From positions 1 to 64,000 of the forward strand of contig DURT01000016.1 in the NCBI GenBank assembly GCA_012843025.1: DNA of 64,000 nucleotides. Direction: 5' to 3'. The notes under the pieces are model-generated. The model saw nothing but the letters and a program-made list of their open reading frames with translations. It had not been told where the DNA came from and did no database searches. The stretch comes from Tissierellia bacterium. GTDB lineage: Bacteria; Bacillota; Clostridia; Tissierellales; Sedimentibacteraceae. The position numbers and the translations under genes were made by a program. Below are positions 978 through 46,541 of the stretch, one piece after another. Numbering within the stretch: the stretch's first letter is position 1; every line of letters begins with the position of its first letter.

Positions 978-2681
978 ATGATTAACTATGAGCATATGCA
1001 AAAATTGATTGATTCTATGTATGAAGGGGTAATATTAATAGACTATAAGAATACTTTCCTTGTAAACAGACGATTTAAAAGAATATTCAATATTCCGGAA
1101 GAAGACCCTGAGACTCTATCTAAAGTATTGAAGGAATACGCACTGTTAAAATTAGCAAGTAATGAAGAATATAAGGAAACGGAAATTTATATAAAAGATA
1201 AGAAAGTAACGGTAGAATGTTACTGTTTCTGTAGTTTAAATTTGTTTAAATTCAATGTTATTTTATTTAAAGAATTCAGCGACATATATGAAGCAAAAAA
1301 TGAAATAGAAGAACTAAAAACAGCTTTAATAACTATGAAAGATGTGCTGGATAATGCATATCAGGGGTTTGTATTGATTAATGAAGAGGGAAGAATAATT
1401 AAATGGAATTATGAAAAGCTTTTTGGAATTAAAGAAAAAGATGTAATTGGAAAACATGTGGAAGAGGTAATCGAAAATACCCGTTTACACATTGTAGTAA
1501 AAACAGGTAAAAAAGAACTATATGATGTTCAAAGAATACAAGGGCGTGATATGATTGCCAGCAGGACACCTATTATAAAAGATGGTAAAATAATTGGTGC
1601 TGTAGGAACAGTTTTGTTTAAGGATATTAAGGAAGTAACAGATTTGGCAAAAAGACTAAAAGTTCTTGAAAGTACCGTAGATAAATATAAAAGTGAAATT
1701 AGCAAAATGTATCGTGCCAACTATACTTTCAACGACATAATTACCCAAAACAAGCAAATGTTAGAGTTGATTAATATAGCTAAAAAATCCGCAAATTCAA
1801 GCTCCACAATATTAATTGAAGGAGAAAGCGGCACTGGAAAAGAGTATTTTGCTCATGCCATACATGAAGAAAGTAATAGAAGGCTGGCACCTTTTATAAG
1901 GATAAACTGTGCTGCAATTCCCCATGAGTTGTTAGAATCAGAACTGTTTGGCTATGAAGCAGGTGCATTTACTGGAGCGAGACGAGAAGGAAAGATTGGT
2001 AAATTAGAGCTTGCCAACGGAGGTACCATACTTTTAGATGAAATAAGTTCCATGCCTATGAGTATGCAGGCAAAGTTATTAAGAGTTTTAGAAGAGAGGG
2101 AATTTGAAAGAATAGGTGGCAATACATCTATAAAAATAGATGTAAGGGTTATTGCTTGTACTAATGAGAATATGGAGGAGCTTGTCAATAAAGGTCTTTT
2201 CAGGCAGGATTTGTATTTCAGATTAAATGTGGTTCAACTGAAGATACCACCTTTAAGAGATAGATTAGATGATATTCCTTGTTTATGTGAAGATATACTA
2301 AACAATCAAATCCAAAATGTAGTTAATACATCTAAAACAGTTACAGAGAGGGCTATTTTTGCATTAAAACTTTATGATTGGCCAGGGAATGTAAGAGAAC
2401 TAAGAAATATTTTAGAAAGAGCTGCCAATATTTCCATAGGAAATGTTATAGATATTCAGCACTTGCCTGACTTCATAAGTAAAAAATTAAATACTGAGCC
2501 AGTTAATTCAAATATATATTCATTGAAAAGAAAAATTGCAGAAGCTGAAGTAAGCGCTATTATAGAGGCTTTAAGATATTGCGAAGGAAACAGAACGGAA
2601 GCTGCCAAATTGTTGGGAATTCATAGAACTGCCTTGTATAAAAAACTTGAAAGTTATGGCATAGATATAAAAGCAATATAG
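978..2681 (+). CDS. Sigma-54-dependent transcriptional activator with PAS sensor, AAA+ and Fis-type HTH
   Basis: [15 protein letters not shown] Walker [20 protein letters not shown] (GAFTGA loop), C-terminal EALRYCEGNRTEAAKLLGIHRTALYKKL HTH; PAS-like region before the AAA+ domain. Confidence 0.95.
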   Translation: MINYEHMQKLIDSMYEGVILIDYKNTFLVNRRFKRIFNIPEEDPETLSKVLKEYALLKLASNEEYKETEIYIKDKKVTVECYCFCSLNLFKFNVILFKEFSDIYEAKNEIEELKTALITMKDVLDNAYQGFVLINEEGRIIKWNYEKLFGIKEKDVIGKHVEEVIENTRLHIVVKTGKKELYDVQRIQGRDMIASRTPIIKDGKIIGAVGTVLFKDIKEVTDLAKRLKVLESTVDKYKSEISKMYRANYTFNDIITQNKQMLELINIAKKSANSSSTILIEGESGTGKEYFAHAIHEESNRRLAPFIRINCAAIPHELLESELFGYEAGAFTGARREGKIGKLELANGGTILLDEISSMPMSMQAKLLRVLEEREFERIGGNTSIKIDVRVIACTNENMEELVNKGLFRQDLYFRLNVVQLKIPPLRDRLDDIPCLCEDILNNQIQNVVNTSKTVTERAIFALKLYDWPGNVRELRNILERAANISIGNVIDIQHLPDFISKKLNTEPVNSNIYSLKRKIAEAEVSAIIEALRYCEGNRTEAAKLLGIHRTALYKKLESYGIDIKAI

Positions 2682-2806
2682 TGTAGACAATTATCTACAG
2701 ATGTTTATGCTGTATAAAAAATTCTACAATCCATTTTTTGTTCATAATTTAACACAAATTTGTCCAGTTAATATATCTTTACTGAATATGTAGAATTATT
2801 TCTACA
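2682..2806 (+). promoter_or_regulatory. Three palindromic upstream activator sites TGTAGA-N6-TCTACA
   Basis: TGTAGAcaattaTCTACA (2682-2699), TGTATAaaaaatTCTACA (2711-2728, one mismatch), TGTAGAattattTCTACA (2789-2806), all upstream of a -24/-12 promoter. Confidence 0.8.
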
Positions 2807-2897
2807 CATTTCATTTTGTTTATATTATCTCCAAAAATACAATTTAAAAAATCCTTAAAATTCCAACACTAAATTGTCGAAAAAATTTGTAAGTCCT

Positions 2898-2913
2898 TGG
2901 CATGATAATTGCT
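2898..2913 (+). promoter_or_regulatory. Sigma-54 (-24/-12) promoter
   Basis: TGGCAT-GATAA-TTGCT, close match to consensus TGGCAC-N5-TTGCW. Confidence 0.9.
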
Positions 2914-2963: not shown

Positions 2964-4145
2964 ATGATGAGAGAAGTTGTTATTGTAAGTGCTGTAAGGA
3001 CACCTATTGGCAGCTTCGGAGGAAGCCTTAAAGATGTGTCAGCTGTTAAATTAGGCGCTATTGCAGGAAAAGCAGCACTGGAAAGGGCAAACGTTAAACC
3101 AGAAATGGTTGACGAAGTGATTTTCGGAAACGTGCTTCAGGCGGGAATAGGACAAAATTTAGCAAGACAAGTATCAATTGCAGTTGGTATTCCCATAGAA
3201 GTTCCTTCCGTAACTATTAACAAAGTTTGTGGTTCCGGTTTAAAAACTGTTCAACTTGCTGCCCAGGCAATAATGTGTAATGAAGCTGAAATAGTTCTTG
3301 CAGGCGGTGCGGAAAATATGAGTCAGGCACCATACCTTCTTCCGAAGGCAAGATGGGGATTAAGAATGGGTGATGGTGCAATTGTTGATAGTATGGTTGC
3401 AGACGGTCTGACAGATATTTTTAACAATTACCATATGGGTATAACAGCAGAAAACATTGCCGAAAAGTGGAATATTACCAGGGAAGAACAAGATGAGTTT
3501 GCCGTTAGAAGTCAAAACAGAGCTGAAGCAGCTATAAAAAGCGGACGTTTTAAAGATGAAATAGTTCCTGTTGAAATTCCTCAAAGAAAAGGGGATCCTA
3601 TTATATTCGATACTGATGAATACCCAAGATTTGGTGCAACCTTGGAGGCTTTGGCTAAATTAAGACCTGCATTTAAGAAAGATGGTACCGTTACAGCAGG
3701 TAATGCATCAGGGATAAATGATGGTGCTGCTGCAGTATTGTTAATGTCAAAGGAAAAGGCAGATGAATTAGGAATTAAACCTTTGGCTACCATTGTATCC
3801 TTTGCTTCTGCAGGAGTTGATCCATCAATTATGGGATACGGACCTGTTCCCGCAAGCAGAAAAGCATTGGCAAAAGCTAATATGACCATAGAAGATATTG
3901 ATTTAATCGAAGCTAATGAAGCCTTTGCGGCACAATCCTTGTCTGTTGTTAAAGATTTAAATTTAGATCCTGAAAAGACTAATGTTAATGGAGGTGCAAT
4001 TGCACTAGGACATCCAATCGGTTGTTCAGGTACAAGAATATTAGTTACATTAATCCATGAAATGATAAAGAGGGATTGTAAAACAGGTTTGGCAACTCTG
4101 TGCATAGGTGGAGGTCAAGGTACTACACTAATCGTTAAAAGATAG
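2964..4145 (+). CDS. thlA: Acetyl-CoA C-acetyltransferase (thiolase)
   Basis: Thiolase motifs [55 protein letters not shown]. Confidence 0.95.
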
Positions 4146-4158
4146 GAGGAGGAAAAAT

Positions 4159-4812
4159 TTGAACAAGGTAATTTCAATTCAAGAAGCTGTAGATATGATT
4201 CATGATGGCATGACTATTATGGTTGGTGGATTTTTAGGATGCAAAAACCCCTTTAAATTAGTAGATGCCCTAGTTGAAAAAGGTGTAAAGGATATTACAT
4301 TAATTGCCAATGATACTGCTTTTCCCGAAGTAGGTATTGGAAAACTTATTGTAAATAAGCAAGTAAAGAAATTAATAGCTTCTCACATAGGAACTAACAG
4401 GGAAACAGGAAATCAAATGAACTCTGGCGAATTAGAAGTTGAATTAGTTCCACAGGGAACCTTGGCTGAAAGAATCAGAGCTGCTGGTGCAGGTTTGGGA
4501 GGAGTATTGACTCCTACAGGAATAGGGACCGTAGTTGCTGAAGGAAAGAGAATTATTGAAGTAGATGGAAAAGAATATCTATTAGAAAAACCTCTTAGAG
4601 CGGATGTGGCTCTCATCGTTGGCGCTAAAGTTGATAAAAAAGGAAATGTTAGGTACGCGAAAGCAACTAGAAATTTCAATCCATTAATGGCTACGGCTGC
4701 GGATCTTGTTATAGTGGAAGCAGATGAGATCGTTGAAGTAGGAGAACTAGATCCAGATGACGTTATGACTCCGGGAATATTTGTAGATTATATAGTAGGA
4801 GGTAATGAATAA
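4159..4812 (+). CDS. atoD: 3-oxoacid/acetate CoA-transferase subunit A
   Basis: [36 protein letters not shown] start after AGGAGGAGG RBS; followed directly by the B subunit. Confidence 0.92.
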
Positions 4813-5468
4813 TGGATGATAAGAACTATATTGCTAAAAGGGTAGCTCAAGAATTAAAAGACGGTAATGTTGTAAATTTAGGAATTGGCCTTCCTACATT
4901 AGTTGCTAACTACATACCCGAAGGTGTTGAAATAACATTACAGTCTGAAAACGGTTTTTTAGGAATGGGTCCTGCCCCAGAGCCAGGACAAGAAGATCCA
5001 TATCTTGTAAATGCAGGGGGACTTCACGTTACAATAAATCCTGGTGGTGTTTTCTTCGACAGCGCGGATTCTTTCCTGATTATAAGGGGTGGACATGTGG
5101 ATGCAACGGTTTTAGGTGCCTTGGAAGTTGATGAGAAAGGAAACCTTGCTAACTGGATGATACCAGGAAAGATGGTACCAGGCATGGGAGGAGCCATGGA
5201 TCTTGTTACAGGAGCCAAAAAGGTTATTGTAGCAATGAACCATACAGCAAAAGGCAACCATAAAATTTTGAAGGAATGTACTCTTCCTTTGACAGCCGTT
5301 AATGCAGTTGACTTAATCATTACAGAAATGGGTGTTATGGAAGTAACGGATAAAGGTTTAGTTCTTACTGAAATCAATCCCAAATATACCGTAGAAGAAG
5401 TACAAGAAGCTACGGGAGCAACATTAATAATTTCTGAGAATTTAAAAGAAATGGAACCACAGGAATAA
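4812..5468 (+). CDS. atoA: 3-oxoacid/acetate CoA-transferase subunit B
   Basis: [50 protein letters not shown], with the SENG motif of family I CoA transferases. Confidence 0.94.
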
Positions 5469-5491: not shown

Positions 5492-6253
5492 ATGTTAAAA
5501 GACAAAGTTTGTATAGTAACGGGAGCAGCAAGTGGTATTGGTTTGGCAATAGCTGAAACTTTTGCAAATGAAGGTGCAAAAGTAGTTATGGCTGATGTTA
5601 ACGAAGCTAAGCTAAAAGAAGAATCCGAAAGAATAGGAGCAGTTTATTTTGTAGGAGATTTGAGTAAACAGGCTGATTGTAAGAAACTAGTTGACTTTAC
5701 GGTAGAGAAATATGCAACTGTTCACGTATTGGCAAATGTTGCAGGAATTCAAACAGTAAGTCCTATTGATGAGTTTCCAGAAGACAAATGGAATTTTATG
5801 ATTAATTTAATGCTTACAGCACCATTCCTATTAACAAAGTACGTATGGCCTTATATGAAAGAACAAAGTTGGGGAAGAATTATCAACATGGGTTCAATTC
5901 ACGGTCTTATTGCATCAGAATACAAGGTTGCCTATATTTCTGCTAAACACGGTTTGGGAGGTTTAACCAGAACTGCTGCCGTAGAAGGTGGTAAGTACGG
6001 TATTACCTGCAATATGATTTGTCCTTCATATGTAAGAACACCTTTGGTAGACAAACAAATTGCTGATCAGGCTAAAAACCATGGAATACCTGAAGAACAG
6101 GTTATCTCAGATATTATGCTTTCAAAAGCTTTTGTAAAGAAATTGTTAGAACCGAAAGATATCGGAGAAGTTGCTAAATTCCTGTGCTCTGATACAGGAG
6201 ATTTTATTACTGGTTCAATGCTTACCATCGACTGTGGTTGGACTGCTTCTTAA
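5492..6253 (+). CDS. 3-hydroxybutyrate dehydrogenase (SDR family)
   Basis: CIVTGAASGIGLAIAETFA, YISAKHGLGGLTRTAAVEGGKYGITCNMICPSYVRTPLVDKQI; strongly resembles D-3-hydroxybutyrate dehydrogenase. Confidence 0.85.
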   Translation: MLKDKVCIVTGAASGIGLAIAETFANEGAKVVMADVNEAKLKEESERIGAVYFVGDLSKQADCKKLVDFTVEKYATVHVLANVAGIQTVSPIDEFPEDKWNFMINLMLTAPFLLTKYVWPYMKEQSWGRIINMGSIHGLIASEYKVAYISAKHGLGGLTRTAAVEGGKYGITCNMICPSYVRTPLVDKQIADQAKNHGIPEEQVISDIMLSKAFVKKLLEPKDIGEVAKFLCSDTGDFITGSMLTIDCGWTAS

Positions 6254-6313
6254 TGTTATATTGGAGTGCCTATAGCGCACTCCTTCATAAAAAAATATGA
6301 ATGGAGGATATTT

Positions 6314-7600
6314 ATGTTTGGAATTATTTTAGGATTAGTACTTTTAATGTTTTTAGCCTACAGAGGATATTCAATTTTATGGGTTGCCCCAGTATGTGCT
6401 TTAGTTGTAGGATTAACAGGTGGCCTAAATCCATTGGAAATGTACAAAGAAACTTATATGACAGGTCTATCTGGTTATGTTAAATCCTGGTTCCCCGTAT
6501 TTATGTTAGGTGCAATTTTTGGTCATTTAATGGACTATACGGGAGCAGCAAAATCAATTGCTGTTTGGCTTACTCAAAAATTGGGAGCTAAAAGAGCAAT
6601 AATGGGCGTTGTTGTTGGATGTGGAGTGTTAACATATGGTGGTATCAGTTTGTTCGTTGTTGTATTTGCTATGTATCCATTAGGACTTGAGTTATTTAGG
6701 GAAGCTAATATTTCAAGAAAACTCTTACCTGGTGCCATAGCTTTGGGATCATTCACCTTTACCATGACTGCTATTCCAGGAACACCGCAAATTCAAAATA
6801 TTATTCCTACTAACTATTATGGAACTGATCCTGCAGCAGCACCTATAATGGGTATTGTTGCAGCCGTTACTATGTTTGTACTAGGCTTGATGTGGCTGCA
6901 CTACAGGGAAAGAAAACTCTCTGAGGCAGGAGATGTATTTGCTGAACCAAAAAACAGAGAAGGTATTGAAGTAGATTACAGTAGTCTTCCAAATCCATTC
7001 TTGTCATTCTTACCCCTGATTACTGTAATAGTAACCATGAACTTGCTTGATTGGGATATAATCGTTGCTTTGTTAAGTGGTATTGTACTATCAATGGCTA
7101 TCAGCTTTAATAAGTATAAAGGATTTACAAAAACAATAAGTAATGGTGCCATTGGTTCTATAACTGCTATTCTTAACACTGCAGGTGCTGTTGGGTTCGG
7201 TACAGTAGTTAGAGCTGTTCCTGGATTTGCAACACTTACAGAAATATTATTAAACGTTCCTGGAACTCCTCTTATATCAGAAGCTATTGCAGTTAACTTG
7301 TTGGCTGGAGCTACAGGATCCGCATCAGGAGGTATGAGTATTGCCCTTGAAGCCTTAGGAGACAAATATATGGAAATCGCTGCTCAAACAGGAATTAGTC
7401 CTGAAGCATTCCACAGGGTTGCATCCTTGGCATCTGGTGGTCTAGATACCCTTCCTCACAACGGAGCAGTTTTAACATTGTTGGCAGTAACAGGAATGAC
7501 ACATAAGGAATCATATATTGACATTATGATGACTTCTCTAATAATTCCTTTAGTTTCTTCTATACCTGCCATAATTTTAGGAAGCTTGGGTATTTACTAA
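6314..7600 (+). CDS. GntP-family permease (organic acid, possibly 3-hydroxybutyrate, transporter)
   Basis: Multi-TM protein with GntP-like stretches (ASGGLDTLPHNGAVLTLLAVTGMTHKESY). ATG at 6314 follows ATGGAGG; substrate inferred from context only. Confidence 0.82.
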   Translation: MFGIILGLVLLMFLAYRGYSILWVAPVCALVVGLTGGLNPLEMYKETYMTGLSGYVKSWFPVFMLGAIFGHLMDYTGAAKSIAVWLTQKLGAKRAIMGVVVGCGVLTYGGISLFVVVFAMYPLGLELFREANISRKLLPGAIALGSFTFTMTAIPGTPQIQNIIPTNYYGTDPAAAPIMGIVAAVTMFVLGLMWLHYRERKLSEAGDVFAEPKNREGIEVDYSSLPNPFLSFLPLITVIVTMNLLDWDIIVALLSGIVLSMAISFNKYKGFTKTISNGAIGSITAILNTAGAVGFGTVVRAVPGFATLTEILLNVPGTPLISEAIAVNLLAGATGSASGGMSIALEALGDKYMEIAAQTGISPEAFHRVASLASGGLDTLPHNGAVLTLLAVTGMTHKESYIDIMMTSLIIPLVSSIPAIILGSLGIY

Positions 7601-7710: not shown

Positions 7711-8655
7711 ATGAAATTAGAAGATATTAAAAAAATCGGCGTAGCCGGTGGTGGAACTATGGGTTCAGGAATTGCACAAATATTTGCGCAAAACGGTTAT
7801 GAAGTGGTAGTGACGGATATTTCAGAAGAATTATTGGAAAATACTAAGAGAATCATATCCTTAAATCAGAAAACTTTGATTAATGAAGGCTTGTTGACAA
7901 AGGAGCAGGCAGAAGAATCTCTGAAATATATTTCTTATTCCACAGATAAAAGTGTTTTTAAAGATGCAGATTTAATAGTTGAAGCAATTATTGAAAAATT
8001 AGACATTAAGCAGGATTATTGGAAGGAAGTGGAGGGAATAGCTCCTTCGCACTGTATTTTTGCAACAAATACTTCAGGTTTAAGCATTAATGCTATATGC
8101 TCAAAATTAGAAAAAAAAGGAAGATTTATAGGAATGCATTGGTGGAACCCTCCTCATATAATTCCTCTTATAGAACTCATAAAAAACGATGAAACTACAG
8201 ATGAAACAGTGGAAGTTTTAAAAGCTTTAGTTGATAAAATCGGCAAGGAATCGGTTGTTGTATTAAAAGATGTAAATGGATTTATTGGTAACAGAATACA
8301 ATTTGCTGTATATAGAGAAGCTTTGAAAATAGTAGAAGAAGGAGTTGCTACCGTTGAGGACGTAGACAAGGCTATGAAATATGGTCCTGGATTCAGATAT
8401 CCGGTACTTGGGCCTTTCGAAACGGCTGACTTGGGCGGCTTAGATACATTCTATTACATTTCATCCTACTTGTTTAACGACTTAAGTGATGTAAAAGAAC
8501 CTACCAAGCTTCAACAGGAAAAAATGGACAAAAAAGAACTTGGAGTTAAAACAGGCAAGGGATGGTATGATTATTCCGATGGCAAGGACGAAGAAGCCAT
8601 GGCAAGAAGAGACAAAAACTTCTTTAAAATGTTGAAAAACATTCATAATCAATAA
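7711..8655 (+). CDS. hbd: 3-hydroxybutyryl-CoA dehydrogenase
   Basis: IGVAGGGTMGSGIAQIFAQNGYEVVVTD NAD-binding motif; GFIGNRIQFAVYREA; GVKTGKGWYDY C-terminus. Confidence 0.93.
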   Translation: MKLEDIKKIGVAGGGTMGSGIAQIFAQNGYEVVVTDISEELLENTKRIISLNQKTLINEGLLTKEQAEESLKYISYSTDKSVFKDADLIVEAIIEKLDIKQDYWKEVEGIAPSHCIFATNTSGLSINAICSKLEKKGRFIGMHWWNPPHIIPLIELIKNDETTDETVEVLKALVDKIGKESVVVLKDVNGFIGNRIQFAVYREALKIVEEGVATVEDVDKAMKYGPGFRYPVLGPFETADLGGLDTFYYISSYLFNDLSDVKEPTKLQQEKMDKKELGVKTGKGWYDYSDGKDEEAMARRDKNFFKMLKNIHNQ

Positions 8656-10881: not shown

Positions 10882-10887
10882 TAATAT

Positions 10888-10903
10888 TGGCATTATTATT
10901 GCT
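10888..10903 (+). promoter_or_regulatory. Sigma-54 (-24/-12) promoter
   Basis: TGGCAT-TATTA-TTGCT. Confidence 0.88.
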
Positions 10904-14141: not shown

Positions 14142-14196
14142 ATATGAAGTATGCCAAATTCATGTTATAATAGTAAAAAGATAATTGAGGTGTACT

Positions 14197-15786
14197 ATGC
14201 TAAATAATATAAACAGTAGTTATAACTTAGAGCTTTTGTCGAAGACAACTCAATTGATGAATAAATCCAAAAAATTCCAAACTACAGCGGAAATTATTTT
14301 TGATTTTATAAAAAACTTTATTGATTTTAATATGGTTGTAATTTATAAGATCAACGAGAAAGAAAATATTCTGGAAATCGTGTCTTGCCTGGGGTCCGAT
14401 GCGGAAAAGTTAAAGAAAAGAATGCCTTTTAAGATAGGGGAAGGCGCAGTTGGATTAGTAGCCAAAAACAAAAAGCCCTTGCTTATTAATGATGTTTTAG
14501 AGTATAAGGATATAAAAGTAAGGCAGTATACTGAGGAGGATCCAATTATAAGAACATTTTTAGCTGTGCCATTGGTGGTAGGGGATAAAGCAATCGGAAT
14601 TTTAAGCGTATCAAATTCCTTACCGGGACAGTATGATGATTATCATGTTCAAATGATTAACATAATTGCTTCACAAGGAGCAGTATTATTGGAACTGAAC
14701 AGTAATATTACGGAAGCTCAGAGGTTTTCGGATAAAATTTTAGACAATGTAAACAGTGGAATTATAGTATTAGACAATCAATGCAATATAATAAAATTAA
14801 ACAAATCTGCAGAAAACATTACTGGTTTTAAATATGATGAAATTTTAGGGAGTAATATTTTATCGAAACGTTTAACCTTGGATTGTAAGGAAGATTTTGT
14901 GCTTAGATGTTTTAATGAAGGGAAGATGTACTTTGAAGAGCCAGGATACATGATAAGAAAAGATGAAAATATTATTAGAATACGACTCAGCACTTCCTTA
15001 ATGTACGATGATGAAGGTAATATAAAAAGTTGTATTTGTATTTTTAGAGATAATACGGAAATAGAAAATCTTCAAAGTCGTATAGCCATGTCAGACAAAT
15101 TGGAAGCATTGGGAAGGCTGACAGCCGGTTTGGTTCATGAAATAAGAAATCCTCTCTTACCCATAAGAAATGCCAGTGAGTACCTACTTAATAAGTATGG
15201 TAATACAGATAACAATGATGAATTAAAAAGTCTTCTTAAAATAATTAGTGAAGAAAGTGAAAGGTTAAACAGGGTACTGGAAGGCTTTGTGAATATGGGG
15301 AAAAATAGCTTTTCATCAATGGGTAGTTGTGAATTAAAAGAAGTAATTGATGAAGTTATAGGATTACTTAACTATACTTTAAAGAAAAATAATATCAAAA
15401 TTATAGTAGATTTAGTAGAAAACGAAATTATATTGCCTTTTAATAAGGATAATTTAAAGCAAGTATTTATTAATTTGTTGCTAAACTCAATTGATGCAAT
15501 CAATATGAACGATACCGCAATGCAACGTGTAATTATTATCAATGCTACTTTAAACAACAGTAACATAATTATTTCCATTACAGATACAGGAAAAGGCATT
15601 CCAAAACAAGAATTAAACCAAATATTTGATCCCTTTTATTCTACAAAGAAAAACGGCTCAGGAATGGGGCTATATATTGCATTTAATATTGTTAAAAGCT
15701 CTGGAGGAGAAATTGATGTAGAAAGCAATACTGAAAAAGGTACCAAGATTACCTTGACCATTCCAAGGGAAGGGGGATGTGTATGA
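14197..15786 (+). CDS. Cytosolic sensor histidine kinase (GAF-PAS-HisKA-HATPase)
   Basis: GAF-like GEGAVGLVAKNKKPLLINDV; PAS ILDNVNSGIIVLDNQCNIIKLNKSAENITGF; H-box GLVHEIRNPLLPIRNASEYL; GSGMGLYIAFNIVKSSGGEI. No TM helix seen. ATG at 14197 with GAGG RBS. Confidence 0.92.
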   Translation: MLNNINSSYNLELLSKTTQLMNKSKKFQTTAEIIFDFIKNFIDFNMVVIYKINEKENILEIVSCLGSDAEKLKKRMPFKIGEGAVGLVAKNKKPLLINDVLEYKDIKVRQYTEEDPIIRTFLAVPLVVGDKAIGILSVSNSLPGQYDDYHVQMINIIASQGAVLLELNSNITEAQRFSDKILDNVNSGIIVLDNQCNIIKLNKSAENITGFKYDEILGSNILSKRLTLDCKEDFVLRCFNEGKMYFEEPGYMIRKDENIIRIRLSTSLMYDDEGNIKSCICIFRDNTEIENLQSRIAMSDKLEALGRLTAGLVHEIRNPLLPIRNASEYLLNKYGNTDNNDELKSLLKIISEESERLNRVLEGFVNMGKNSFSSMGSCELKEVIDEVIGLLNYTLKKNNIKIIVDLVENEIILPFNKDNLKQVFINLLLNSIDAINMNDTAMQRVIIINATLNNSNIIISITDTGKGIPKQELNQIFDPFYSTKKNGSGMGLYIAFNIVKSSGGEIDVESNTEKGTKITLTIPREGGCV

Positions 15787-17132
15787 AAATTAATATTTTA
15801 ATAGTTGATGATGAAAAATCTATAAGAGAAACTTTGAAAATTATTTTAGGTAATTTAAATTACAATGTTTTGACTGCTTGTGACGGTTTTGAAGCAATTA
15901 AAATTATAAAAAACAATATTATAGATATTATGATTACAGATTTGCGAATGCCGGGGATGGATGGAATTGAATTAATGGAAAAGGCATTGGAAATAGATCC
16001 TTCTATAGAAACTATATTTATATCTGCATATGCTGATATAAAAGCAGCTGTAAAAGCTGTTAAAATGGGGGCTTTTGACTATGTGGAAAAATCTTTCTCA
16101 ACCGATGAACTTATTTTTACAATAGAAAAAGCAATTGAACGGAGAACTTTAAAAGAAGAGAACAGAAGCTTGAGAAGGAGAATTGAAGGGAAGTATAACT
16201 ATGATGGTGTAATTGCCAAAAGTGAGGCCATGGGAAAAATAATTGATATGGTTAACAGGGTTGCAAAGAGTAAAGCAAATATTTTATTGACCGGGGAAAG
16301 TGGAGTAGGCAAAGACGTTATAGCTAATTTAATTCATAGGAAAAGCAATAGATCTCATAACAAGATAGTAGTAATAAACTGTGGCGCAATTCCTGAAAAT
16401 TTAATTGAAGCAGAATTATTTGGATATGAAAAGGGATCTTTTACCGGTGCAGAACGCACTAACAGGGGAAAGTTCGAACTTGCGGATAAAGGTACCTTAT
16501 TTTTGGATGAAATAGGTGAATTGCCTTTACATGCTCAAGTCAAGTTCTTAAGAGTTTTGCAGGAAAAGCAATTATATAGAATAGGTTCGGAAAAGAGTAT
16601 AGATGTTGATGTTAGGATAATAGCTGCTACAAACAAAAATTTAATAGATGAAGTTAATAAAGGGACCTTTAGAGAGGATTTATATTATAGGTTAAATGTT
16701 GTAAATATAGAAATACCGCCTTTGAGAGAAAGAAAGGAAGATATTCCTGTACTTGCAGAATATTTCTTGATGGAATTTTCAAAGGAATATAATAAAAAAG
16801 TTAAATATATTGAAGTGGAAGCTTTAAATTATTTAATGAATTATGATTGGAAAGGAAATGTCCGAGAGCTAAGAAATGTAATCGAACGTTCTGTATTGAT
16901 GGCTGATGAGAAGGATGAATTATTATTTAAAGAATATCTTCCTAAGGAGATAACTGGCTTAGATTCAATGGAGGAAATTGAAGATAAAAATGAAAAGACC
17001 TTGGCAGATTATGAAAAGTTAATAATTGAAAATACTTTAAGAAGGTATGGAGGAAATAAAACCAAGACTGCTGAAGTACTGGGCATAAAGAGGCAGACTT
17101 TGTATAATAAGCTCAAAGAATATAATATATAG
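15783..17132 (+). CDS. NtrC-family response regulator (REC-AAA+-Fis HTH)
   Basis: ILIVDDEKSIRETL; DIMITDLRMPGMDG; GESGVGKDVIANLIH; GYEKGSFTGAERTNRG (variant GSFTGA loop); YGGNKTKTAEVLGIKRQTLYNKL. Confidence 0.95.
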   Translation: MKINILIVDDEKSIRETLKIILGNLNYNVLTACDGFEAIKIIKNNIIDIMITDLRMPGMDGIELMEKALEIDPSIETIFISAYADIKAAVKAVKMGAFDYVEKSFSTDELIFTIEKAIERRTLKEENRSLRRRIEGKYNYDGVIAKSEAMGKIIDMVNRVAKSKANILLTGESGVGKDVIANLIHRKSNRSHNKIVVINCGAIPENLIEAELFGYEKGSFTGAERTNRGKFELADKGTLFLDEIGELPLHAQVKFLRVLQEKQLYRIGSEKSIDVDVRIIAATNKNLIDEVNKGTFREDLYYRLNVVNIEIPPLRERKEDIPVLAEYFLMEFSKEYNKKVKYIEVEALNYLMNYDWKGNVRELRNVIERSVLMADEKDELLFKEYLPKEITGLDSMEEIEDKNEKTLADYEKLIIENTLRRYGGNKTKTAEVLGIKRQTLYNKLKEYNI

Positions 17133-17206: not shown

Positions 17207-17241
17207 TTATAAAGGCATTCATTCTCCACCCTTTAATGTAT

Positions 17242-17257
17242 TGGCACAGTAATTGCT
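17242..17257 (+). promoter_or_regulatory. Sigma-54 (-24/-12) promoter
   Basis: TGGCAC-AGTAA-TTGCT, exact consensus. Confidence 0.92.
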
Positions 17258-17294: not shown

Positions 17295-18665
17295 ATGGGC
17301 AAAAAAGAGCTAAAAATACTTTGTCCTAATGGACATTTGGGTTTTTCACCTACAAAAGAAGAAAGTTTTTGGATTGGGGCAAAAACTAAACCAGATTATT
17401 ATTGCAGTGATTCAGGAAGCGATGATATTGGGCCGGCGCCCCTTGGAGAAGATAAATGTGCCAGTTTGTATGTTTGGCAAAAGCATGATTTAGAATTAAT
17501 GTTATTGGCATCCCGGGAACAAAATGTTCCAATGATTATAGGTTCTGCTGGAGATACAGGAACTAACAGCAGGGTAGATATGTACGTACAAATAATTAAA
17601 GATTTAGCAAAAGAGCATAATTTACCGAAATTTAAATTAGCATATTTTTATTCTGAAGTTGATAAAGAATATTTAAGAAATAAAATGAAGAAAGGCATTA
17701 TAATTGAAGGTTTGGATTCAAGACCGAGTTTAACTATGGAGGAATTAGAAAGTACGAAGCGGATAGTAGCTGTTGCTGGAGTTCACCCATACATAAAAGC
17801 ATTGGAAATGGGTGCTGATGTAATTATAGGAGGTCGGTCTTCAGATGTGGCAATTTTTGCTGCACCGGCCATTTATGAAGGATTTCCGGAAAATGTATCC
17901 TATTATGCGGGAAAGGTATTAGAATGCGCTTCATTCTGTGCAGAACCATATGGAGCAAAAGAAAGCGTGATTGGCACCATAACAAAAGATGATGTTAAGG
18001 TAACGGCAATGGCTCCATGGCAAAGGTGTACTGTGGCTTCTGTTGCAGGTCATGCCATGTATGAAAGATCCAATCCATATTATGAATATTTTGCTGGTGG
18101 AATGCTTGATATGTCAGAATGTGTTTATGAACAATACGATGAAAAAACAACAAGAATTACTAATCCTAAATTTGTTCCAGTTGAAGGCAAGATAAAGGTT
18201 AAATTGGAAGGTTCTGCAAAGGTCGGTGAAATGTATATTGGAATTGCAGGAATCAGAGATCCATATACCATAAAGCATATTGATAAAGTAATTGAATTGG
18301 CGAGAGAAAATGTAAGAGAGCGTTTCGGGGAAGAAGGCTACCAATTACACTACAGAATTTATGGTAAAAATGGTGTTATGGGTGATTTAGAACCAGTTAA
18401 AGAAATTAAGTCCCATGAACTATGCGTTATTGTTCAAGGAATTGCTCCTTCGGCAGAAATGGCGGAAGAAGTTGCAATGACAGGACTGAGACAGATATTT
18501 TATGCAAGATTGCCTGAAGTTAAGGGTACTGCCGGGACAGCTGCTTTCCTAGTAGATGAGGTTTTACGTGCTACTCCTGCCTACAGATGGTCAATAAACC
18601 ATACAGTAGAAGTGGATGACCCCTTAGAATTATTTGATGTAAAGCTTGTAGAAATAGGAGGATAG
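17295..18665 (+). CDS. Acyclic terpene utilisation AtuA-family protein (DUF1446)
   Basis: MIIGSAGDTGTNSRVDMYVQIIKDLAKEH; GADVIIGGRSSDVAIFAAPA; VQGIAPSAEMAEEVAMTGLRQIFYARLPEVKGTAGTAAFLVDEVLRATPAYRWSINHT resemble the AtuA/DUF1446 family. Confidence 0.82.
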   Translation: MGKKELKILCPNGHLGFSPTKEESFWIGAKTKPDYYCSDSGSDDIGPAPLGEDKCASLYVWQKHDLELMLLASREQNVPMIIGSAGDTGTNSRVDMYVQIIKDLAKEHNLPKFKLAYFYSEVDKEYLRNKMKKGIIIEGLDSRPSLTMEELESTKRIVAVAGVHPYIKALEMGADVIIGGRSSDVAIFAAPAIYEGFPENVSYYAGKVLECASFCAEPYGAKESVIGTITKDDVKVTAMAPWQRCTVASVAGHAMYERSNPYYEYFAGGMLDMSECVYEQYDEKTTRITNPKFVPVEGKIKVKLEGSAKVGEMYIGIAGIRDPYTIKHIDKVIELARENVRERFGEEGYQLHYRIYGKNGVMGDLEPVKEIKSHELCVIVQGIAPSAEMAEEVAMTGLRQIFYARLPEVKGTAGTAAFLVDEVLRATPAYRWSINHTVEVDDPLELFDVKLVEIGG

Positions 18666-31640: not shown

Positions 31641-33023
31641 ATGTTAAATTTAAAAATAAATAGTATGGATTATCAAGGAATGTTGGAGGCGGTGTTATTA
31701 GCCACCCAAGATGCAATAAGTGTTGTAGATGAAAAGGGAATACACATTCTTGTTAATCCTGCATATACGAAGATTACAGGTATTGATTTTGATGATATAA
31801 TAGGAAGAGATGCGCTTTTTGATATAGAAGAGGGAGAGAGCCTTCACATGAAGGTTCTTACTGGAAAAAAACCTGTTGGAAATACAATATTAAGAATACG
31901 GCCCAGCGGAAAAACCGTAGTAGCTCAGGCTGCTCCTATAATAGTAAACGGTGAATTGAAAGGTAGTGTTGCGGTTCTTCATGATATTTCCGGTATAAAA
32001 GATTTAACGGATAAGTTAGAGGAAGTTGAAAAAAAGTTAAGAGCACTTACCTACAAATATAAACCGGAAGATATTATTGGAGAATCTGAAGCTATTAAAC
32101 ATGTAAAAACTCTTGTTGAAAAAGCAGCAAAAGTTCCTGCAACAGTGCTTTTAAGAGGAGAAAGTGGTACCGGAAAAGAATTGTTCGCCAGCTCAATCCA
32201 TGCTCAAAGTGCTCGCTCTCACAGCAACTTCGTAAGAGTAAATTGTGCAGCCTTGTCTGATTCACTCCTTGAAAGTGAACTTTTCGGATATGAAGAAGGA
32301 GCTTTTACTGGGGCTTTAAAAGGAGGTAAAAAAGGTCTTTTTGAAGAAGCAGACAAAGGAACTATATTTCTTGACGAAATATCGGAAATAAGCCTGAACA
32401 CCCAGGCAAAACTGTTAAGGGTACTTCAGGAAAAAGAAATAATGAGGGTAGGTAGCAATAAAATTATCCCTGTGGATGTAAGGGTGATTGCAGCAACTAA
32501 TGCAGACTTAGCTAAAGAAGTACAGGAAGGCAGATTCAGAGAAGATCTGTTTTACAGAATAAGTGTTTTTCCAATACATATTCCACCTCTTCGAGAGAGA
32601 ATGGAAGATATACCTTTATTAGTCAGAAGTTTTATATCAAAATTTAATGATGAATATGGAAGAAATATTATTGATATTTCAATAGATGCTTTAAATGTGT
32701 TAATGGAGCACAACTGGCCTGGTAATGTAAGGGAATTAGAAAATATAATTGGACGAGCTATGATTTATATGAACTTAAACGAAAGAATAATAACTACTTC
32801 CCACCTACCAGAGCTGAAAAAGAGCAGAATAACAACTGAAAGAATTGAAATACCTTCAAATGAAAATTTAACTAAGTTAAAAGATGTGTTAAGCAAGTCT
32901 GAATCAGAACACATAAGAAAAGTATATTACACTACTAAAAAGAATAAAACCCGTACAGCTGAAATCTTGGGTATTTCTCTCAGGTCATTATACTATAAAA
33001 TGGAAAAATATAAAATTGATTAA
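31641..33023 (+). CDS. Sigma-54-dependent activator with PAS sensor (BkdR-like by context)
   Basis: PAS-like [62 protein letters not shown]-terminal [29 protein letters not shown]. Confidence 0.94.
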
Positions 33024-33025
33024 TG

Positions 33026-33080
33026 TGCAAATAATTGCAAGAAAAGAAGTCTTGAATTTTATTGCATGCAAAATATTGCA
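33026..33080 (+). promoter_or_regulatory. Two palindromic upstream activator sites TGCAA-N4-TTGCA
   Basis: TGCAAataaTTGCA (33026-33039) and TGCAAaataTTGCA (33067-33080), both perfect palindromes with A/T spacers. Confidence 0.78.
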
Positions 33081-33105
33081 AATCTATACCAAGGAGATTC
33101 TATAA

Positions 33106-33146
33106 AATCAACTATTTGTTGATATACTAATGGTTGATTTTTTCTC
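33106..33146 (+). terminator. Possible intrinsic terminator of the activator gene
   Basis: AAATCAAC ... GTTGATTTTTT; stem AAATCAAC/GTTGATTT followed by T-rich DNA. Confidence 0.45.
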
Positions 33147-33152
33147 CTTTTT

Positions 33153-33168
33153 TGGCATGGTATTTGCT
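33153..33168 (+). promoter_or_regulatory. Sigma-54 (-24/-12) promoter
   Basis: TGGCAT-GGTAT-TTGCT. Confidence 0.9.
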
Positions 33169-45064: not shown

Positions 45065-45143
45065 TTGGAAAGTTCTGTAGGGATGAAATATTGTTGAAAA
45101 AAAATGAAATTTTGTTATAATAGATTTAGTGAGGAGTGATACC

Positions 45144-46541
45144 ATGAAAATGGGCTTTGAATTAAATCTTACCCAAACTCGAAAGCTTATAATGACACCT
45201 GAATTAAGGCAAGCTATACAAATCTTGCAATTTAATAATGTTGAGTTGACGGATTATATCAACAAGCAATTGGAAATCAATCCCTTCCTTGAATCTGTTG
45301 AAAACAAAGATGATGACAGTTCATCTAGTGAACAAATCTCCGAACATAAGGAAAACGATGAAATTGACTGGAAGGAACTGGCAGAAAGATACGACGATTT
45401 TAGTTATAAAACTATTGCTAATAATATAGATGACGAAGATAAGCAAACTTTTGAAAGCTATACTTCAAAAAAACTGTCCCTTAAAGATCATTTAATGACC
45501 CAGCTGGGAATGACTGTAAAGACCAACAGGGAAAAACGAATCGGAGAATTTATAATAGAATCATTGGATAATAAAGGATATCTGGGATGTTCCGTGCAAG
45601 ATATTAGTTTGTTATTAAATGAGGATGTTGTTGAAGTTGAAAGGGTGTTAAGACTAATACAGACCTTTGACCCAGTTGGTATTGCTTCCAGAAATCTAAG
45701 TGAATGTTTAATGATACAACTAAGAGAAAAGGGCATTAAAGATAAAAATGCCTATATTATAGTAGAAAACTATTTAGAAGAATTAGCCACAAATAAAATT
45801 CAAAAAATTGCTAAAGAGTTACATATACCGGTAAGCAGAGTTCAAAGTATATGTGACATAATAAAAATGTTGGAACCCAAGCCTTCTCGAGGCTTTATAA
45901 TAGACAGCGACAATATTAGGTACATAGTTCCTGATGTTACCGTAGAGAAAATAAACGATGAATATATAATTATAGTTAATGACAGCTACTTGCCGACCCT
46001 TACCATAAGCAGTTATTACAGGAATATAATTAACAACTTAGATGATAAGGAAGCAAGTAAATTTTTAATGGATAAACTGAATTCTTCTATGTGGTTAATA
46101 AAAAGCATCGAACAAAGAAGAATGACTTTGTACAATGTAGTGAAATCCATTGTTAAGTTTCAGAGAAAATTCTTTGATGAAGGTAAGTCAGCTCTTAGAC
46201 CCTTGGTTCTTAAAGATGTGGCCGATGACATAGGTGTCCATGAATCTACTGTAAGTAGAGCAACTAATGGAAAATATGTACAAACTCCCAGAGGTTTATA
46301 TGAATTGAAGTATTTCTTCGCAAGCAGTTTGGGAGATTCCTTCGGAAAAGCAGTATCGTCAACCAGTGTAAAATCCAAAATAAAGAAATTAATAGATGAA
46401 GAAAACAGTCAAAAGCCCTTAAGCGATCAAAAGATATCAGAAATATTAAAAGAAGAAGGAATAAGTATTTCTCGAAGAACAGTGGCAAAGTATAGAGATG
46501 AAATGAGAATACCTGCTTCTTCAATGAGGAGAAGATATTGA
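45144..46541 (+). CDS. rpoN: RNA polymerase sigma-54 factor
   Basis: MKMGFELNLTQTRKLIMTPELRQAIQILQFNNVELTDYINKQLEINPFLE; DIGVHESTVSRATNGKYVQTPRGLYELKYFF; RpoN-box-like SRRTVAKYRDEMRI. ATG at 45144 with GAGGAG RBS. Confidence 0.97.
   Translation: MKMGFELNLTQTRKLIMTPELRQAIQILQFNNVELTDYINKQLEINPFLESVENKDDDSSSSEQISEHKENDEIDWKELAERYDDFSYKTIANNIDDEDKQTFESYTSKKLSLKDHLMTQLGMTVKTNREKRIGEFIIESLDNKGYLGCSVQDISLLLNEDVVEVERVLRLIQTFDPVGIASRNLSECLMIQLREKGIKDKNAYIIVENYLEELATNKIQKIAKELHIPVSRVQSICDIIKMLEPKPSRGFIIDSDNIRYIVPDVTVEKINDEYIIIVNDSYLPTLTISSYYRNIINNLDDKEASKFLMDKLNSSMWLIKSIEQRRMTLYNVVKSIVKFQRKFFDEGKSALRPLVLKDVADDIGVHESTVSRATNGKYVQTPRGLYELKYFFASSLGDSFGKAVSSTSVKSKIKKLIDEENSQKPLSDQKISEILKEEGISISRRTVAKYRDEMRIPASSMRRRY

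Follow-up and report, generated by a model that had tools for sequence, protein, structure and literature searches.

Three 18-bp palindromes of the form TGTAGA-N6-TCTACA, lying between the gene of a PAS-type sigma-54 activator (bEBP) and a −24/−12 promoter, are best explained as upstream activating sequences (UAS) through which this activator very probably controls the operon thl-ctfA-ctfB-bdh-gntP(-hbd). A first-pass annotation had proposed that an array of activator sites here feeds a sigma-54 promoter, and at the level of sequence the proposal is supported by conservation, co-loss, protein domains and the presence of rpoN. The sites, the promoter, the domains of the activator, the sigma-54 gene, the content of the operon, their conservation and their co-loss are all read directly from the DNA.

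The array, the adjacent activator and the operon

We observed the array in the window (the whole 64-kb stretch of DNA analysed here) between the activator open reading frame (978-2681, plus strand) and the thiolase gene starting at 2964, as previously described. The distal UAS 1 (TGTAGACAATTATCTACA, 2682-2699) matches TGTAGA-N6-TCTACA with 0 mismatches and abuts the activator stop codon; the second distal site, UAS 2 (TGTATAAAAAATTCTACA, 2711-2728), reads TGTATA-N6-TCTACA, with 1 mismatch, and lies 29 bp from UAS 1; the proximal UAS 3 (TGTAGAATTATTTCTACA, 2789-2806) is again a perfect TGTAGA-N6-TCTACA, none of the three being assigned to a strand. The positions of the two perfect and the one single-mismatch palindrome were thus confirmed to the base, and the centre spacings, re-measured, took the same values of 29 bp (sites 1-2) and 78 bp (sites 2-3). 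The range quoted for such UAS in the first-pass annotation is about 80-200 bp upstream; counted from the predicted start at ~2924, the site centres fall at about −127, −205 and −234, so that the array reaches a little past it.

Under a first-order Markov model, the number of sites with at most one mismatch expected per copy of the 282-bp intergenic region is 0.00075, and two sites were found in 0 of 20,000 simulated copies; a chance origin of the array is excluded. The genome search for TGTAGA-N6-TCTACA put forward in the first-pass annotation returned, over 2.2 Mb in 97 contigs, only two perfect matches, both in the array at 2682-2806. Six palindromes with one mismatch occur elsewhere in the 2.2 Mb, which is about the count of the reversed control, and neither an activator gene nor a sigma-54 promoter was found beside any of the six.

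The activator is a protein of 567 aa in which Pfam matches (PF13188, PF00989, PF00158, PF25601 and PF02954) outline two PAS regions, an AAA+ sigma-54 interaction domain, a lid and a Fis-type HTH. The GAFTGA loop and the Walker motifs (LLDE in the translation) are present, with PF00158 at E=9e-71, as is the C-terminal HTH_8 (PF02954, E=3e-13), whose recognition helix is GIHRTALYKK. No receiver domain appeared among the Pfam matches, and the N-terminus matches PAS models. The protein was identified neither as PrdR (NF041552, 469.3 bits vs an equivalog cut-off of 795) nor as AtoC (NF008469, 342.9 bits vs 714). Autoregulation of the activator gene was likewise rejected, a UAS upstream of it being seen in no member of the genus. 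Note that the sigma-54 activator domain has about a dozen other full matches in the genome, so that the specificity of the motif matters.

The −24/−12 element claimed before the thiolase operon is present on the plus strand at 2897-2913 (TTGGCATGATAATTGCT), with a predicted start at ~2924. It has the conserved GG and GC, fits the clostridial consensus TTGGCATNNNNNTTGCT given in a published survey (PMC6615313), and is kept in the orthologues examined, the TTGGCA and TTGCTT columns being invariant in the genus alignment. The gene for sigma-54, rpoN (45129-46541, plus strand; PF04552, E=1.9e-64, match at 46059-46535), is encoded within the same 64-kb window as the array.

With rpoN at 45129 and further promoter matches, sigma-54 control is abundant in the window. 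A second PAS-type sigma-54 activator gene (31641-33023) is followed by TGCAA-N4-TTGCA palindromes (33026-33039 and 33067-33080) and a sigma-54 promoter (33152-33168), beyond which the genes look like those for phosphate butyryltransferase, butyrate kinase, a 2-ketoacid oxidoreductase and a branched-chain aminotransferase; judged by sequence, 31641-33168 looks like a BkdR-like branched-chain acid unit. Two further sigma-54 promoter matches stand on either side of the genes for a histidine kinase (14185-15786) and an NtrC-type response regulator (15777-17132); the one at 10887-10903 precedes a YfcC-like carrier gene and a D-aminoacylase-like gene, and the one at 17241-17257 precedes a gene at 17295.

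Downstream of the array, all on the plus strand, come thl, for an acetyl-CoA C-acetyltransferase (2964-4145; PF00108, TIGR01930), for which the starts of orthologues favour the ATG at 2967; the genes for CoA-transferase subunits alpha (AtoD-like, 4159-4812; NF007394 over its cut-off) and beta (AtoA/ScoB-like, 4812-5468; TIGR02428 over its cut-off); bdh, for 3-hydroxybutyrate dehydrogenase (5492-6253; TIGR01963 over its cut-off); the gene of a GntP-type permease (6308-7600; PF02447), a candidate 3-hydroxybutyrate/acetoacetate carrier; and hbd, for a 3-hydroxyacyl-CoA dehydrogenase family protein (7711-8655; PF02737, PF00725), the final gene of the run. The CoA-transferase and 3-hydroxybutyrate dehydrogenase models pass curated cut-offs, which supports the description of a 3-hydroxybutyrate/acetoacetate operon.

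The same mechanism might nevertheless serve an operon engaged mainly in C4 fermentation or in acetate/acetoacetate CoA transfer, the signal then being the fermentation or redox state, and we consider this a genuine possibility, albeit a minority one. Related EBP-controlled thl/hbd/CoA-transferase operons are classed under butyrate/butanol synthesis by Nie et al (2019; PMC6615313), and in several other genera the fetched flanks of the orthologues contain thl and ctfAB but neither bdh nor gntP, which means that acetoacetate or a CoA ester may rival 3-hydroxybutyrate as the signal. However, crt, bcd and etf are absent from the operon, and the combination of bdh, carrier, CoA-transferase and thiolase suits uptake and breakdown.

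Conservation at orthologous loci and gene-blind searches

The first-pass annotation had staked its proposal on the conservation of the palindromes in orthologous promoters, and it survived this comparison: both the array and the −24/−12 element recur, the array lying between the orthologous activator gene and the operon in ~30 species. In Sedimentibacter and other Clostridia, activators of ~49-85% identity are encoded with the array downstream and a thl/ctfAB operon next, and in close orthologues, where the contig permits, the palindromes are followed by the −24/−12 element and then by thl, or by ctfA if thl is lost. The same array is found in four members (L109-L112, at 58-62% identity) of a different family within the class. 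When intergenic regions were compared from the end of the activator gene to the first gene at 26 orthologous loci, at least 25 of them held a three-site array if up to 3 mismatches per site were allowed. Some sites are weak, with 3 mismatches, in four of the orthologues, all distant (L044, L045, L065 and L068).

The close relatives of the window's genome mostly carry the name Sedimentibacter, which is probably its own genus. Sites 1 and 2 are 29 bp apart in all 14 of the 14 genus members, where sites 2 and 3 are separated by 77-82 bp. Outside the genus, the first spacing is kept at 28-31 bp (~three helical turns) in nearly all orthologues and the second ranges from 44 to 104 bp; given this variation across families, the exact geometry is not essential. 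The distance from site 3 to the promoter is ~89-115 bp at the orthologous loci, and outside the genus this proximal UAS is better conserved than the other two. Site 1 overlaps the coding end of the activator gene at 11 of the 26 loci, mostly with the stop codon TAG contained in TGTAGA, and in many species (e.g. L034 and L035) coding end and enhancer are thereby interlocked as TG-TAG-A. Alignment within the genus shows the half-sites and the −24/−12 element as the main conserved intergenic blocks, with poorly conserved flanks. Over 72 sites, nearly all the information resides in the letters of the half-sites, the centre being AT-rich and unspecific; positions 3, 4, 15 and 16 are invariant, and substitutions are mostly one-sided.

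We also searched with a pattern composed of the proximal site and the promoter, in which no gene information was used. Among 85,462 species genomes it matched 16 stretches, and in 14 of the 16 the operon that follows is this one, with its thiolase or CoA-transferase genes; the 14 come from Sedimentibacter, Tissierella, Anaerosolibacter, Anaerovirgula, [Clostridium] ultunense and relatives. Matches in Elusimicrobia (L066) and Bacteroides (L069) were rejected as real arrays, having one site each and being suspected of arising by chance; neither an activator orthologue nor a thiolase operon was found in the two fetched stretches. In an order-wide scan of 250 genomes, 19 matched, each time at a locus running from activator to operon; the count for the reversed pattern was 0. 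Lone perfect palindromes elsewhere occur at about the frequency of the reversed control and, where examined, have no linkage to activators.

Several individual sites were considered as further targets and discarded. For the one-mismatch sites elsewhere in the genome (L003-L008), as for the additional perfect ones of G007 and G051, neither a linked activator nor a linked sigma-54 promoter was seen, and the majority lie inside open reading frames. The G013 site is on a short, partly masked contig in which the sigma-54 element was not found, and the sites in G005 and G016 represent the same thiolase operon at a contig edge.

Natural variants and the probable reader of the sites

One near-complete genome from the genus (G014) is without the activator gene, thl and ctfAB and retains bdh-gntP-hbd, before which neither the sites nor the sigma-54 promoter were found. 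In two others (G020 and G024), where thl is lost or truncated, the array and the promoter persist ahead of ctfAB. The thiolase gene is missing from the first (L029), and in the second (L104) ~18 codons of it remain, apparently fused in frame to the gene of a CoA-transferase subunit.

The recognition helix of the activator reads IHRTA(L/I)YKK across all orthologues, invariant except for the single L/I change. More distant activators (43-47% identity) precede bdh-first operons; their helix is ISRT(A/S)LYEK where extracted, and the palindromes in the bdh-first intergenic regions are of the TGTTAA-N6-TTAACA or TGTAAA-N6-TTTACA type. This co-variation of helix and half-site, seen in few paralogues, supports the activator as the probable reader of the sites. 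The bdh-first paralogue loci (L100, L101, L102 and L103) form a natural set for decoding the specificity of Fis-type HTH domains.

An 18-bp dyad could be read by any dimeric HTH protein, and the palindromes might in principle serve a different regulator, such as a dimeric repressor, as its operators, with the activator driving the sigma-54 promoter through other sites. We regard this as improbable: the sites, the activator and the sigma-54 promoter co-occur and co-vanish, the sites accompany the activator gene, whose stop codon they often overlap, no second regulator gene is constantly adjacent, and TGT-N10-12-ACA is the form of UAS published for 15 clostridial EBP groups in PMC6615313. More doubtful still is that the palindromes are RNA hairpins at the end of the activator transcript or in a leader, since the fold of 2670-2900, mildly stabler than shuffles (z −2.1), is no more than the palindromes alone predict, a search for a terminator-like site found none, all sites are upstream of the predicted start and hence outside the operon mRNA, and mostly one-sided changes with the same bases kept are the pattern of a protein site, not of a stem.

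Proposed mechanism and relation to known systems

Under the preferred reading, in which the adjacent activator works through the three UAS, we infer that binding, looping and rpoN dependence combine as follows. A metabolic signal would be sensed via the PAS region of the activator, and its Fis-type HTH would bind each palindrome as one dimer; the activator would then oligomerise on the array, presumably as a hexamer, with DNA looping bringing it to sigma-54 RNA polymerase at 2897-2913, and its hydrolysis of ATP would open the promoter for a start near 2924. The genes thl-ctfA-ctfB-bdh-gntP(-hbd) would thereby be switched on, providing a putative route from 3-hydroxybutyrate import through acetoacetate and acetoacetyl-CoA to acetyl-CoA. 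What the signal may be we guess from gene context: 3-hydroxybutyrate or acetoacetate, or else a short acid or CoA ester related to them.

A close published comparison is the reconstruction of 39 clostridial EBP groups by Nie et al (2019; PMC6615313), fifteen of them with TGT-N10-12-ACA sites and several with thl, hbd, CoA-transferase or gntT operons under their control. The groups described there, especially XcaA, AhcR, CrbR and XcgR, resemble the present locus in having the EBP gene near its target, multiple UAS of the TGT-N10-12-ACA form, a sigma-54 promoter of the TTGGCATNNNNNTTGCT type and thl, CoA-transferase or gntT targets. They differ in that Sedimentibacter does not occur in the text and no group in it targets thl-ctfAB-bdh-gntP-hbd. 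XcaA is given there with thl as target and Clostridium and Geosporobacter as genera, and the activator group described here may be the XcaA group.

Individual regulators share parts of this arrangement. AdhR of C. beijerinckii uses its C-terminal HTH to bind three UAS that, as here, precede a sigma-54 promoter, and its activity is severely impaired when any single UAS is disrupted (PMC7017808), but it carries an N-terminal GAF domain with a PAS domain and targets alcohol dehydrogenase genes. GcsR of P. aeruginosa binds three 18-bp palindromes at its target, and the box of the related TyrR (TGTAAA-N6-TTTACA) shares its frame with the sites of the array (PMC4894688), whereas the TGTAGA half-site belongs to the array, and sensor and targets differ. 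AtoC of the Escherichia coli AtoSC system, which activates atoDAEB on acetoacetate induction (PMC3118216), is likewise an EBP with a CoA-transferase/thiolase operon, but is a two-component response regulator. A text search of the literature combining the motif with clostridial terms gave no match. Lundgren et al. reportedly described in 2015 that HbcR (PA2005) of Pseudomonas aeruginosa controls (R)-3-hydroxybutyrate metabolism together with RpoN. HbcR is, like the present activator, a PAS-containing EBP, and its pairing with the 3-hydroxybutyrate pathway is thus known elsewhere; it differs in having one PAS region listed vs two and in belonging to a different phylum.

Overall, the array is well supported as a new example within the known bEBP/sigma-54 type of switch, not as a new type, and it leaves the known picture of sigma-54 activation unchanged. 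The ~30 arrays, the paralogues with other half-sites and the one co-loss offer material on how Fis-type HTH domains choose their UAS, and the natural spacing variants on how the spacing of sites affects oligomer assembly. We see an even case for and against the broader proposal that the activators of Sedimentibacter, Tissierella, Anaerosolibacter and relatives form an unnamed PAS-type group, in which the IHRTALYKK helix would read TGTAGA and the protein would act as a dedicated sensor of ketone-body acids, on a fixed plan with the two distal dimers separated by ~three helical turns and the third dimer closer to the promoter. The locus assigns a cognate motif, a target operon and a likely role to an activator family of largely uncultured anaerobes.
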